IMG/VR virus record: IMGVR_UViG_3300026114_000010
Span: 1-29,240 of that record
Reading direction: 5' to 3' (one strand)
DNA length: 29,240 nucleotides
Source of the DNA: a virus
The notes beneath the pieces are model-generated. The model did not search any database. It was not told where the DNA came from and saw nothing but the letters and a program-made list of their open reading frames with translations. A program made the position numbers and the translations under genes. Of this stretch, positions 13,175 through 21,423 are shown piece after piece. Position 1 is the stretch's first letter. The number at the start of each line of letters is the position of its first letter.

Positions 13175-14575
13175 TTATTGATTTTTTATTTGATTGAGCA
13201 TCTGTTTTAATTTTGTACTTTGTACATCAGCGTCAATTTTTCCCGGCTCAGATGCCCAGAGTCTAGTACCCCTGTAGAAGTTACCAGTGCTGTCTTGTTT
13301 CCCAAGGGAATTTAGAATGCTCGGCTGTGCTGGTGATGATTCAGCCTCGCTCAAGTCACTAATTCTTAAGCAGTTCATATCGAACTCCAGATCTACTTTT
13401 TGCCCAACACCGGAGCTTGATCGAGTTTTCATTAACTGGATTTGGTATCTACCACGCTCACGCATAGAACGACTAGTAAAAATACCAAACACATTATCAG
13501 CCGTGTTTATTTTAGAAATACCGCCAGAAATATGTGAATGGTCAAATTCTATTTCTTCTACTGCGGCTCGATTTAACTGGGACGCAGTAACAAAGAGTAC
13601 ACCAAGTTCTTTTGCAAGGTTTCGCAGTTCTTCAGAAACATACTTGTCTTTAACAAATAAGTCATTGGGAGAAACTTTCGCACTTACTGGCATTAGTAGG
13701 TCAAGATAATCAACGCAAATAAAGTCAATTTGTCTACCAGTTTTTATTGATAGTTCTTTTACATATGCACGAATGTCATTAACTGTACTCTGTGCATTCA
13801 TATACTTTATTTGTAATGTACCAGACTTCTTAGACATCATCTTGACTTTCATTTCTACAGTGTCAAGGTCTTTAAAAATCTCTTTAGAACCAGTATTAGT
13901 CAGCATACCATCAAGACGCATAGCAGTTAACCCTTCGGAAAGTTCTAGGGTTATATAAACACCATTTAGCCCAGCCTCTATCCAATTGACAGATAGGTTT
14001 TGCATAAACAAACTTTTACCTGAACCAGAGCCACCAGCAAAAATCTGTAATTCACCACGATTAAATCCGCCATACAGTACTTTGTCTAATGCTGTCCACC
14101 CAGTTGAGTTTTGCCCATTATTATCTTTAAGAGCAGTTAATCTTGCACGGGGGTCATCAAAATAGTCCAAGCCCATATCTTTAGTTAAACTTATTTGGAC
14201 CGCATCCTTTATAAGTTTCTCTACAGGGTCGTAATCACCCTTTTCTAATAGGTCAGCAGACTTCAGTATTGCTCTCTCCAATTCTTGGCGGCGAGTAAAT
14301 GCTTCAAATTCTTCTAATAGCCAATCAAAATGCCCATCATTAAGCCCATCAATTGGCTGCAATTTGATACCAGTAGTTGCAGAAATCTGCTCACGCTCTG
14401 GCATTGTGTAGTATTTGTCACAATGCTCTTGCATGAATTCAGCAACTGGACGCAGACGTTGATCAAAATTTAGTGGATTGAATATATTTTGAATACGCAC
14501 ATACAGCTCTGCATCATAAAGAAGCATTTCCAAAAATAATTGTTGAACTTCTGGTCCGTATTCTTTAAGTGACAA
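13175..14575 (-). CDS. 41: Replicative DNA helicase, DnaB family (T4 gp41)
   Basis: This 466-residue helicase is the hexameric 5'-3' enzyme that unwinds DNA ahead of the polymerase and works with the primase encoded just upstream. The RecA-like C-terminal domain has Walker A 'GGSGSGKS' (181-188), a Walker B ending in D289 ('FICVDYLDLL') and 'VTASQLNRA', the sensor/H3 region of DnaB proteins. The N-terminal 150 residues are helical, as in gp41. The start is TTG at 14575, chosen because AGGG lies 8 bases upstream and the next ATG would remove conserved N-terminal sequence. It overlaps the primase gene by 11 bases. Confidence 0.93.
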   Translation of the reverse strand: MSLKEYGPEVQQLFLEMLLYDAELYVRIQNIFNPLNFDQRLRPVAEFMQEHCDKYYTMPEREQISATTGIKLQPIDGLNDGHFDWLLEEFEAFTRRQELERAILKSADLLEKGDYDPVEKLIKDAVQISLTKDMGLDYFDDPRARLTALKDNNGQNSTGWTALDKVLYGGFNRGELQIFAGGSGSGKSLFMQNLSVNWIEAGLNGVYITLELSEGLTAMRLDGMLTNTGSKEIFKDLDTVEMKVKMMSKKSGTLQIKYMNAQSTVNDIRAYVKELSIKTGRQIDFICVDYLDLLMPVSAKVSPNDLFVKDKYVSEELRNLAKELGVLFVTASQLNRAAVEEIEFDHSHISGGISKINTADNVFGIFTSRSMRERGRYQIQLMKTRSSSGVGQKVDLEFDMNCLRISDLSEAESSPAQPSILNSLGKQDSTGNFYRGTRLWASEPGKIDADVQSTKLKQMLNQIKNQ

Positions 14576-15557
14576 TGGATATCCCTAGTTTTCGTCTAAG
14601 TTTCTTTTTATTCATCTCTATCTTAATTCGACTATGTTCTGCATTTTGTATAATAGTTATTATTGTTGATAAACGCCCTATTTTTCTAACAGCATCATTT
14701 ACGTCTTTACAGCCTTCAGGCCATTCAAGTGGAATGCTTACTGACCACCCAAGTTCTAATGCTCGGTCTATCATACTCATTCCTGCGTTATCTTGGTCAG
14801 GAACCACAATGACCTCACGTCGAAGCCGATTTATCAACTCTGCTTGTTGTGACGAGACTGTACTATGCATTACCGATAATCCATCAATGGAGAGTGCATC
14901 AAAAATACCCTCTGTCACAATAGTGTATTTCCAGTTTTCTTGTTGTAAATCTATACCAAAAACATATCCGGGTTGGCTGTCTGAAAGATACTTTGGTTTG
15001 CGGTTGTCAAGAAATCTGATTGTATATCCCACTGTTTTTTCATCGTGGGTAAATGGTACTAGTATGCCTTCTCTACCGTACTCATTGGAATCAATCGCCA
15101 TCAGCGGATACGAGTCATCGATACATCTGCTAAGCAGATGCTTTTTGTGATCTAAATGTTTGGCGTTGATCAGTTCAATGTTTTGAGGCAATTCTTTAGA
15201 ATCAAAGTTAATCTGTTTTTTCTTTGGCTGATTATAATTTATTGTAGCCACAATATCATTCATAGAACGATATTTCAAACTTTCTAAATTAATTCTATCA
15301 ATCTCTGTACCATCAACACCCAGCCACTGAAGAAAACTTCTTGCTTTAAAATTTAAATTACGACCATTTTTAAATCCACACTTAAATCCACAATTAAAGC
15401 AATTGTAAGTCCAACCTTCTTCTGAGGTGATTAATCCACCACGATTTTTAGTATCAACAGTTTCACCATTATGGATACAACATGGGCCTGAGAAACTAAT
15501 CCACCCAGATGGGGTGGTTTTAGCATTGGCTGGGAGATATTGTCTAACATCTATCAT
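14565..15557 (-). CDS. 61: DNA primase (T4 gp61)
   Basis: This 330-residue primase lays down RNA primers for lagging-strand synthesis with gp41. The N-terminal zinc ribbon uses C26/C27, H29, C53 and C56 ('CCIHNG...CFNCGFKCG'). The TOPRIM core has E216 ('VTEGIFDAL') and D254-x-D256 ('VVPDQDNAG'), which bind catalytic metal. Length is close to T4 gp61. It starts 13 bases after the SGNH gene with no obvious ribosome site and ends inside the helicase gene, so helicase and primase are likely co-translated. Confidence 0.92.
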   Translation of the reverse strand: MIDVRQYLPANAKTTPSGWISFSGPCCIHNGETVDTKNRGGLITSEEGWTYNCFNCGFKCGFKNGRNLNFKARSFLQWLGVDGTEIDRINLESLKYRSMNDIVATINYNQPKKKQINFDSKELPQNIELINAKHLDHKKHLLSRCIDDSYPLMAIDSNEYGREGILVPFTHDEKTVGYTIRFLDNRKPKYLSDSQPGYVFGIDLQQENWKYTIVTEGIFDALSIDGLSVMHSTVSSQQAELINRLRREVIVVPDQDNAGMSMIDRALELGWSVSIPLEWPEGCKDVNDAVRKIGRLSTIITIIQNAEHSRIKIEMNKKKLRRKLGISIVT

Positions 15558-17170: not shown

Positions 17171-17178
17171 TATTTATG
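17171..17178 (-). promoter_or_regulatory. Candidate late promoter for the baseplate-like gene (CATAAATA)
   Basis: The minus strand reads TCATAAATACTTTAGG, nearly the same as the strong box at 9295-9302 (GTATAAATACTTACAGG). It lies 16 bases before the ATG at 17154, and its first three bases are the complement of the plus-strand gene's own ATG. Confidence 0.45.
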
Positions 17179-17553
17179 AGTATTGAACTATTTGAAAAAC
17201 TAGATGAAAAGTACCCTTTCATCTCTGTCTGTCGTTACGCAGGTCAAGAATACCTTGGAATAATTCAAAACAGAGATTCAAATATAACCACTATCTATGA
17301 TTTTGGTGATATCACAGACCCTGATTTAAAAATTAGTTTTTTAGAACTAGGAAACATATGGTGGTGGGAATCTAATCGAATGATTCCTATTAATATATTT
17401 TTGAAAGGTGAATGGGACAAGTTTAGGCCGTATCTAAAAACATTTAATAATAAAGATTTAGATTTGTTACATGGCCCTGAGTGCTGTTTATCAGAAATCG
17501 TTGCTAAAAAAGGAAAGCGTCGCTCAATAACTCTTGTCAGAAAAATGGATTAA
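17176..17553 (+). CDS. Conserved phage hypothetical protein, the only plus-strand gene
   Basis: This 125-residue protein starts 'MSIELFEKLDEKYPFISV' and has a marked motif 'WWWESNRMIPINIFL' (about residues 62-76) and a basic C-terminus. I recall similar short proteins in many marine T4-like phages, all of unknown function. A TATAAATA late box lies 39 bases upstream on the same strand; the ribosome site is weak (TAAAG). Its last 30 bases overlap, tail to tail, the 3' end of the DnaE-like gene, and no terminator is visible there. It is not an antisense shadow, because the minus strand opposite it carries no long gene. Confidence 0.8.
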   Translation: MSIELFEKLDEKYPFISVCRYAGQEYLGIIQNRDSNITTIYDFGDITDPDLKISFLELGNIWWWESNRMIPINIFLKGEWDKFRPYLKTFNNKDLDLLHGPECCLSEIVAKKGKRRSITLVRKMD

Positions 17554-18099
17554 TCGCATATGCAAAGCAGCAAGATGAGCATAAGCAATGGCGTGGCTTT
17601 TCTTAAATGTATATCCACTATCGGTTGATTCCCACACAGTTTCTGCTACTTCTTTCCACGGTTTTCCAATAAGATGTTTCTTGCCCGGACGTATTATAGC
17701 CAGAAACATTGCTAACCGTTCTATTGAATTAACCGACTCCGGCATTTTTTGCATATTATAAAAATGATTGCCAAGATGCACCACTTTTTCAACAAAAGCT
17801 TTGTCTTGCAAGGTTTCCCACGGCACAGGTTGATTTAGCAACCACTGATAGTGTTCGGTATTTTCTATTAATGAATACACATAGACATTTAAGAAATCAA
17901 TTTTGAAATAACCCCGGTCTTCTGCCAATCGATAATCAATAGCCGCACAACTATTCATTGGATCATAGGGTATATCACTTACATAAACACCAGAATTATG
18001 TTTTTGTATTTCACCATTATTTTCTTGTCTTGCAGGAGTGTGCTTAATTAAATCAAGTATTGCTTTTCTATCTGCAAAATCTATGTCAACATCTGGCAT
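17524..18099 (-). CDS. Miniature DnaE-palm-like (DNA polymerase III alpha, family C) protein
   Basis: From the ATG at 18099 the protein has 191 residues. Motifs of the bacterial DnaE palm appear in the right order: 'PDVDIDF' (2-8, catalytic Asp pair), 'HNSGVYV' (34-40, like DnaE HAxGVxI), 'YFKIDFL' (64-70, like the KxDFLGL third catalytic Asp), 'IIRPG' (135-139, like xxRPGP) and 'FKKSHAIAYA' (165-174, like FNKSHAxxYA). The PHP domain, thumb, tau-binding part and most of the fingers are absent. DnaE itself exceeds 1000 residues. The start overlaps the upstream stop (TAATG) and has GGAGG 9 bases before it. Polymerase activity is not proven; it may be a relic with a new job. Confidence 0.7.
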   Translation of the reverse strand: MPDVDIDFADRKAILDLIKHTPARQENNGEIQKHNSGVYVSDIPYDPMNSCAAIDYRLAEDRGYFKIDFLNVYVYSLIENTEHYQWLLNQPVPWETLQDKAFVEKVVHLGNHFYNMQKMPESVNSIERLAMFLAIIRPGKKHLIGKPWKEVAETVWESTDSGYTFKKSHAIAYAHLAALHMRLIHFSDKSY

Positions 18100-18287
18100 T
18101 AAAAAATGCCTCCTTTTCGCCTTTCTTTTCTGCACCAAGCGGCATAAGACATTATTTTATTTTTGTTTTTCTTTTTCTTACAATATTTTTTATAGGATGG
18201 GTCAGTTTCTGCTGTTAGTGTTTTTTTCACTTTCCCTTTATAAAACTGTCTTTTGCCTGACCACGGATTACTGTAAACATTACTCAT
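18099..18287 (-). CDS. Small Lys-rich basic protein (62 aa)
   Basis: This 62-residue protein has a strongly basic middle ('KKYCKKKKNKNK', about residues 33-44) and Arg/Lys near the end. It is likely to bind nucleic acid or an acidic protein. It has no fold I recognise. It follows the zinc-knuckle gene by 9 bases and its TAA overlaps the ATG of the DnaE-like gene, so the pair is coupled and may act together. Confidence 0.6.
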   Translation of the reverse strand: MSNVYSNPWSGKRQFYKGKVKKTLTAETDPSYKKYCKKKKNKNKIMSYAAWCRKERRKGGIF

Positions 18288-18296
18288 TAATTTTTA

Positions 18297-18974
18297 TCAC
18301 CACCCGGCTTCTTTTAATATTTTTTGCACATATAATTGATCGGAAGGATACTTTGCAAAGCGTCCTTGCCAATATTCTGGTTCTATCCATGGCCATACAA
18401 TTGCTAATTGTTCGGTATTTAGATTATCTAAAAATGATTGCCCACTTTCACAGTTATATATTATCCAAGGACTAATTCTACCTGTAGATATGGCGTAGCA
18501 TATTTTATTAGAATTTCCATATCGCAACATATCATGTGGAGGACATTCTGTTTCATCTCCCCACTCAATACTATATTCTATTGCTCGCTCAAGTGCATCA
18601 TTTGATGCTTCTGTTCGTAGATACGTATATAGGTATTCTGCATAAATTTTATCTTTACACCAGTGATCTAATTTTTTATTATTATCGATGACCCAGTCAA
18701 TAAAACGGCTAGTGTTTATAGCACGAATTCTTATTAAATAATATCCAAATTTTACAAAACCACGATAATAACTACTTTGTGCAAAGTCATCAAATGTTTT
18801 TAATTTGGCAGAACCTTGCGTTTTTTCAAAAAATCTCAGATACGCGTTGAGTCCGAGTTGAACGCCTTTATGATCCTTATCTTGATATCTACGTTTCATT
18901 TCACACAAATGTGCAGCAAGAGTTGATTCTCTCACATAACTTTTACCACAATATTTGCATGTATAATCTGTCAT
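18297..18974 (-). CDS. Conserved phage protein with N-terminal zinc knuckle
   Basis: This 225-residue protein begins with a short zinc-binding motif, C6-x2-C9-x12-H22-x-C24 ('YTCKYCGKSYVRESTLAAHLC'), like a single C2H2/CCHC finger. The rest is helical and rich in Tyr and Trp with a conserved-looking 'GRISPWIIYNCESGQSFL' near residue 175. Its ATG overlaps the upstream stop (TAATG). I recall related proteins in marine T4-like phages without an assigned role. A DNA- or RNA-binding function is inferred from the finger only. Confidence 0.7.
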   Translation of the reverse strand: MTDYTCKYCGKSYVRESTLAAHLCEMKRRYQDKDHKGVQLGLNAYLRFFEKTQGSAKLKTFDDFAQSSYYRGFVKFGYYLIRIRAINTSRFIDWVIDNNKKLDHWCKDKIYAEYLYTYLRTEASNDALERAIEYSIEWGDETECPPHDMLRYGNSNKICYAISTGRISPWIIYNCESGQSFLDNLNTEQLAIVWPWIEPEYWQGRFAKYPSDQLYVQKILKEAGW

Positions 18975-19962: not shown

Positions 19963-21423
19963 TTAGTTTTGCCAATCTAATTTTTCTATTGAGAATGGAT
20001 ATTGTGCCTCTTTGTAGAAACTTTTTCTCTTTGTTAAATGGCGTTTTGCAAATTTGCAAGTTGATGTAATATCCCAAATTTGTACGTGATCTTTATCTTC
20101 GGCTTTACGAATACCACGACCAATTGACTGAATAACTCGAACAAAACTCTTGCCCGGCTCAATCAAAACAAGGTTAAAAATTCTAGGAAGATTAATTCCT
20201 ACTGCAGCAACACCGTATGTTGCAATGATAATCTTACCTTCGGAGTCAGCAACTTGGTCATAGTGGTCCTGTCTGTCTGTTGCTTTTGTACTACCAGAAA
20301 TGAATACCGAGTTATCTAACCTAGATTCTAACTCTTTTCCGGCAGATACTCTATCAACGAGAACAAGAACATTGCCTGAATTACTAGCCTGTTTGATAAT
20401 CTGGCTCATCATATCCAAACGACCAGATTCTTCAAGTAGATATTTCAATTCACTCTGATAGTTATTATATTCTACATAATCAATCATTTGAACTATATTG
20501 ACATGACAGTTTGCTAATACCCCTCTGTCCTGCAATTCAGATGCTGACAACTGTGATTCCACAGGTCCAAGACTAACGTGCAATGCTTGATATGCATAAT
20601 CTTCTTTTGGTACTGTTCCAGTCAATCCCCATCGTATTGGAACATGTCCCATTGCACCTGTTAATAGGGTTTTTAATGCATCAGCTTTTGCACTGTGTAC
20701 TTCGTCAACAATTACACAAACAACACCTTCTAAAAACTCACTAATAGAAATATCGGCAGTTTGATTCTTGGTGTTTTTCATTAAACCATTAAGGCTTTGC
20801 CAAGTACAGATTGTGTGCTGATGTCCAAACTCTTTTCTATCGCCATAAAATACACCAACATCAAGCCCCATGTTGCTATAGTCTTTTTCAGTTTGTGTCA
20901 CCAAACTTTTGTTAGGAACAATAACTATGCTTCGGCCATGTTGTTCTACACGCTGGCTTAATGCCGCAGTCATTATCGTTTTACCACTACCGGTAGCGAT
21001 TTCTTGAATTGATTGTGGGTTTTTTAAGAAATTATTAATTATTTCTACTTGGTAATCACGAAGTACTATAGAATCACCAGCAGCAGGATGTGTTGATGGC
21101 CACTTTCTGTCAGAAAAAGATTGTTCATCAACATCTTCTAAATCATAATCTACTTGATATGTTCTACGGTCGTCGACCTCAATCTCATAATTTTCTTCTA
21201 CAAGAATAGGTATAATTTCTGGCAACAAATTAACAAAAGTTGATCCGCCTAATTGAAAAAATGCCACTTTCCCATCCCAGCGGCCCAGCCTCACCGCTGG
21301 CATGTATCTGGCTCCCGGGATTTCATATTTAAACTTGCCAGTCAGTTTTCGTCTGGTATCGAGGTCAAGTCCTTCAATTTTGACGTTGACCTCGTCTTTA
21401 ACAATAATCGTTGCTTTTTTCAT
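19963..21423 (-). CDS. uvsW: UvsW-type RNA/DNA helicase (superfamily 2)
   Basis: This 486-residue helicase belongs to T4 UvsW, which unwinds branched DNA and R-loops and helps switch replication from origin-dependent to recombination-dependent. The N-terminal 100 residues ('RWDGKVAFFQ', about 48-57) match the UvsW-specific domain. Motif I is 'ATGSGKT' (143-149), motif II 'DEVH' (240-243), motif III 'GLTGTVP' and motif VI 'QSIGRGIRK' near residue 435. Length is close to the T4 protein. It starts 8 bases after the AAA+ ATPase gene. Confidence 0.95.
   Translation of the reverse strand: MKKATIIVKDEVNVKIEGLDLDTRRKLTGKFKYEIPGARYMPAVRLGRWDGKVAFFQLGGSTFVNLLPEIIPILVEENYEIEVDDRRTYQVDYDLEDVDEQSFSDRKWPSTHPAAGDSIVLRDYQVEIINNFLKNPQSIQEIATGSGKTIMTAALSQRVEQHGRSIVIVPNKSLVTQTEKDYSNMGLDVGVFYGDRKEFGHQHTICTWQSLNGLMKNTKNQTADISISEFLEGVVCVIVDEVHSAKADALKTLLTGAMGHVPIRWGLTGTVPKEDYAYQALHVSLGPVESQLSASELQDRGVLANCHVNIVQMIDYVEYNNYQSELKYLLEESGRLDMMSQIIKQASNSGNVLVLVDRVSAGKELESRLDNSVFISGSTKATDRQDHYDQVADSEGKIIIATYGVAAVGINLPRIFNLVLIEPGKSFVRVIQSIGRGIRKAEDKDHVQIWDITSTCKFAKRHLTKRKSFYKEAQYPFSIEKLDWQN

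Follow-up and report, generated by a model that had tools for sequence, protein, structure and literature searches.

Can a protein of 191 amino acids that keeps the palm motifs of bacterial DnaE, the alpha subunit of DNA polymerase III (Pol III alpha), still take part in DNA synthesis, and in what form? The question is raised by a gene on a viral record of 29,240 bases, a metagenomic fragment that is referred to here as the window. A sequence-only reading of this DNA had recognized the motifs and had offered two explanations for the protein, here called mini-DnaE: either a miniature nucleotidyl-transferring enzyme, or a domesticated relic, for instance a decoy acting on the host replisome. The conservation, fold and distribution of the gene point to a different arrangement, in which the protein represents one half of a catalytic core whose other half is encoded elsewhere in the genome.

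A short gene derived from DnaE

The open reading frame was confirmed, and all five motifs occur in it in the order previously listed (Table 1). The spacing of the AAGGAGG element favours the ATG at 18099 over an upstream TTG at 18138 as the start codon. Comparison with three relatives that are 81-82% identical gave dN/dS values of 0.09-0.14, indicating purifying selection on the gene. The acids at the three catalytic positions, D3, D5 and D68, which correspond to D401, D403 and D555 of E. coli DnaE, are all retained, as had been proposed, and are invariant. D3, D5, D7, K66 and D68 are unchanged in the relatives compared, which came from viral metagenomes and from 12 named phages. Among 29 diverse members, the columns without any variation are D3, D5, I6, D7, H34, G37, K66, D68, L70, W94, I136, R137, P138, K140, H169 and Y173. 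The aspartates D3, D5, D7 and D68 thus do not vary freely among the homologues compared.

Table 1. Coordinates of mini-DnaE, its motifs and its neighbours in the window (residues are numbered along the 191-residue protein)
Feature	Position	Strand	Description
mini-DnaE open reading frame	17524-18099	minus	191 aa, ATG at 18099; probable C-terminal (metal- and template-binding) half of a split minimal Pol III alpha; PHROG 11778
Shine-Dalgarno AAGGAGG	18109-18115	minus	9 nt before the ATG at 18099
PDVDIDF	residues 2-8, 18076-18096	minus	D3, D5, D7 = E. coli DnaE D401, D403, D405; invariant
HNSGVYV	residues 34-40, 17980-18000	minus	H34, G37 invariant; by-eye match to E. coli HAGGVVI from residue 511
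YFKIDFL	residues 64-70, 17890-17910	minus	K66, D68 = E. coli K553, D555; invariant
IIRPG	residues 135-139, 17683-17697	minus	reduced fingers; I136, R137, P138 invariant
FKKSHAIAYA	residues 165-174, 17578-17607	minus	reduced fingers; H169 (E. coli H760), Y173 invariant
Basic lysine-rich open reading frame	18099-18287	minus	62 aa; pI 10.3; TAATG overlap with the mini-DnaE start
Convergent gene	17176-17553	plus	125 aa; PHROG 11637, function unknown; 30-nt overlap with the mini-DnaE 3' end
225-aa protein	18297-18974	minus	weak match to a C2H2 zinc finger; PHROG 11058; commonly the gene upstream of mini-DnaE
Primase (gp61 position)	14565-15557	minus	named by synteny with annotated relatives
gp41/DnaB-type helicase	13175-14575	minus	54% identical to PA5oct-group helicases
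SF2 helicase, UvsW position	19963-21423	minus	named by synteny

The relationship to DnaE is beyond the reach of simpler searches. A Pfam scan of the 191-residue protein of the window alone returned no match, and a PDB sequence search with the same protein returned weak unrelated matches only, thus making profile and fold searches necessary. A profile search with the window protein matched PHROG 11778, annotated as 'DNA polymerase', at 7.4e-51 over residues 3-184, and two longer phage DNA polymerase families were matched as well, one of 1190 positions at 1.4e-5 and one of 782 positions at 6.5e-6. Against E. coli DnaE, the mini-DnaE profile gave a weak match at the sequence level, with pieces aligned around residues 399-419, 606-641 and 739-767 only. 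An AlphaFold2 model of mini-DnaE, obtained with 40 sequences from the window and metagenomes, reached a pLDDT of 92.6. When this model was compared with the PDB by Foldseek, the top nine matches were all of the DNA polymerase III alpha/DnaE type (best E 9.7e-4, probability 1.00), and the next, unrelated matches started at E 0.36. Against entire DnaE chains, the nine matches have modest TM-scores (0.37-0.54), which is what a fragment would be expected to give. The structure prediction does contain a palm fold, resembling part of that of DnaE.

Other parts of DnaE are reduced or missing. The interval between the DxDxD and HNSG motifs is too short for a thumb, and alignment to E. coli DnaE shows about 90 fewer finger residues in mini-DnaE, including the stretch that holds R709/R710 in E. 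coli. All in all, mini-DnaE is a real, well-conserved gene derived from DnaE, whose relatives are encoded at 437 IMG/VR stretches and in 90 phage records. Nearly all of these phage records are genomes of about 280-490 kb (121Q, GAP32, RaK2, the PA5oct group, Atu_ph07, Phosso, XacN1 and SCTP-2), with Slicko01 (141 kb) as an exception.

The second gene and the division of the palm

In DnaE, the palm acids hold the metals and the GRGS loop contacts the incoming nucleotide. A whole-genome search of 11 named phages detected in each of them, above cut-off, another small gene, whose match to PF07733 is confined to the N-terminal third of the domain. This partner gene, which belongs to PHROG 11127, encodes about 169-183 amino acids and is located close to the gp44 clamp-loader genes, from which a GroES gene often separates it. 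The G-x-G-R-G-S residues of its GxGRGSS loop are invariant, and the C-terminus of most partners reads EFL[KR]. The model of the partner reached a pLDDT of 87.7, and its top 13 structural matches were all bacterial DNA polymerases of the Pol III alpha type. The partner profile aligns to residues 320-392 of E. coli DnaE, while mini-DnaE starts at residues 399-400, and thus the two genes divide the palm at one fixed point. The C-terminal regions of DnaE bind the clamp and tau; PHP, clamp-binding, tau-binding and OB-type regions were recognized in neither half. A search for adjacency or fusion of the two halves in 80 partner loci found neither.

Both halves are present in each of the 11 named genomes tested and in every one of the eight IMG/VR contigs that carry mini-DnaE and measure 200 kb or more. 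Since seven of these eight contigs were found through the partner, the unbiased evidence is represented by contig G030 (352 kb), which was found through mini-DnaE and carries the partner as well, by the 11 named phages, and by an exact match between the presence of mini-DnaE and that of gp41. Indeed, among the 19 contigs found through the partner, nine carry mini-DnaE and the same nine carry gp41, the other ten being without both. This coincidence indicates that mini-DnaE is absent where the contig is incomplete. Partner-only contigs, such as G015 (359 kb), were considered as a break in the pairing and rejected, as the gp41 region is missing from them too. The tree distances of the two halves also correlate (r = 0.84 over 19 pairs, with none of 2000 permutations as high), a congruence that would also arise from shared descent alone.

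In the window, only the C-terminal half of the split polymerase is present: the partner gene was not found in the 29-kb record, and neither was a clamp-loader gene. In six mini-DnaE-bearing contigs of 60-145 kb the partner was not found either, apart from a match to a single-chain DnaE in one of them, and the clamp loader was undetected there too. The 29-kb fragment does not include the clamp-loader region, so we infer the partner in this phage from close relatives. Two partner-bearing genomes, G022 and G012, fall inside the clade of the window, and its closest relative with both halves is contig G017, in which they measure 168 and about 190 amino acids.

Gene neighbourhood and other polymerases of the carriers

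Many relatives share one gene order, consisting of a UvsW-type helicase, small genes, a C2H2-type or other small protein, mini-DnaE, a convergent gene of 120 amino acids, primase and gp41; XacN1 and RAS14 depart from it. The gp41 of the window is closest to that of the PA5oct group and Atu_ph07, both of which are in the jumbo-phage set. The pairing of mini-DnaE with its PHROG 11637 neighbour is kept in most relatives, a remarkable constancy given that the two genes lie on opposite strands. On the other side of the gene, the sequence-only reading had described a coupling to a very basic small protein. The overlap and the basic character are both there (Table 1), but tblastn over the loci collected found the 62-residue frame elsewhere only in L001, whose 191-residue protein is identical to that of the window. 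Being confined to these two loci, the coupling is not a conserved feature, and the basic neighbour was rejected as a polymerase subunit.

The sequence-only reading had noted that T4-like phages normally use a family B polymerase (gp43). A family B polymerase is present in 11 of the 11 named mini-DnaE carriers tested, with no match within the 29-kb window fragment, and mini-DnaE probably acts beside this replicase. In Atu_ph07, vB_Pa-PAC2 and Slicko01, the family B polymerase matches lie in two separate open frames, and the replicase genes may be split too.

Some marine carriers of mini-DnaE also encode a compact, single-chain DnaE (L103:3447-5144 in G002, L198:4854-6584 in G006, and the end of L068). 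The weak partner-profile matches in G002, G006 and L068 are to this different DnaE and were rejected as partners. In G002 the compact enzyme measures 565 amino acids, contains PF07733 and a finger domain with no PHP match, and lies end-to-end with gp41; at the corresponding site in the window it is absent. Its best relative among phage records, at 39% identity, is found in LR756508.1, a 484-kb uncultured phage. For one phage to encode two different C-family enzymes seems unusual.

A probable two-chain polymerase and its alternatives

Taken together, the homology, the fold, the unvarying active-site residues, the place of the break and the presence of both halves in relatives make it very probable that mini-DnaE represents the C-terminal half of a minimal, two-chain C-family (Pol III alpha) polymerase specific to phages. 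The partner chain would contribute the beginning of the palm, including the GxGRGSS loop that binds the nucleotide, and the mini-DnaE chain would supply the three metal-binding acids, K66 and shortened fingers with the RPxK and KSH motifs. Association of the two chains is predicted, and would rebuild one nucleotidyltransferase active site. The reconstituted enzyme would have no PHP domain, no recognizable thumb, about 90 fewer finger residues and no tau-binding, clamp-binding or OB-type tail.

An enzyme working by itself would account for the presence of all three palm acids and for the confident folding of the single chain, and could be imagined in end-tailing or primer handling. The earlier proposal of a miniature nucleotidyl-transferring enzyme holds as far as the descent from DnaE and the retained palm acids are concerned; it fails in that the protein contains only half of the catalytic core. 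Indeed, the GRGS nucleotide-binding part of the palm is missing from mini-DnaE and conserved in the second gene of every named genome and long contig tested, and the break falls in the middle of the palm, which makes activity without the partner highly improbable. The other earlier proposal, that of a degenerate relic or of a decoy binding to parts of the host replisome, draws on the loss of most DnaE domains and is scarcely credible: dN/dS is about 0.1, the active-site residues of both halves are invariant across very diverse members (31-61% identity), and the very C-terminal regions through which DnaE binds the clamp and tau are absent. Invariance in both halves together with strong purifying selection leaves the relic or decoy unsupported.

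The two halves could also form a complex that has lost template-directed polymerase activity and is retained in the phage replisome as a subunit with a structural or regulatory role, or that transfers nucleotides to a target other than DNA. The missing thumb and finger stretch with R709/R710 of E. coli would fit such a complex, and DNA synthesis by the pair is itself a prediction; the literature searched contained no published experimental test of a split Pol III alpha, DNA synthesis by paired halves included. The invariant metal-binding acids, however, point to retained metal-dependent chemistry, and this explanation appears unlikely. With moderate confidence, we favour an active, obligate two-chain C-family polymerase, with a split palm and without the usual thumb and some of the fingers, that, throughout a large clade of phages, does a dedicated job alongside the family B replicase. 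The likeliest job, put forward tentatively, would be low-processivity synthesis, for instance to fill gaps, extend primers or carry out repair, given the location of the genes in the primase-helicase-UvsW and clamp-loader modules.

A split minimal Pol III alpha has already been described in the 'group 2.2' jumbo phages, in which Atu_ph07 is placed (Iyer et al. 2021, PMC7824862). Priority for the two-gene prediction belongs to that study, and the window is a further example and not a new kind: no essential difference from the system described there was seen, the window fragment holding only the C-terminal half. The PHROG families of the window protein and of the partner, 11778 and 11127, both named 'DNA polymerase', are listed as separate families and not as halves. 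In passages of a marine jumbo-phage survey (PMC9123017), PF07733 is listed among the frequent genes of one cluster, and the split polymerase is not discussed in those passages.

Compared with bacterial DnaE, the two chains share the palm motifs, the nucleotide- and metal-binding residues and the RPG and KSH finger motifs. Unlike DnaE, the enzyme is split in two, both halves together reach about one third of its length, and there is no PHP domain, no thumb, a greatly reduced set of fingers and none of the C-terminal domains. A minimal viral family X polymerase, discussed in connection with repair, likewise consists only of a nucleotidyltransferase fold and fingers (PMC11646218); it belongs to family X and not C and is a single chain, and the analogy thus concerns the working mode only.

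Should the pair be active, two chains encoded by separate genes would together form the catalytic palm of a C-family polymerase core of unusually small size, and this would reveal how few parts of Pol III catalysis requires.
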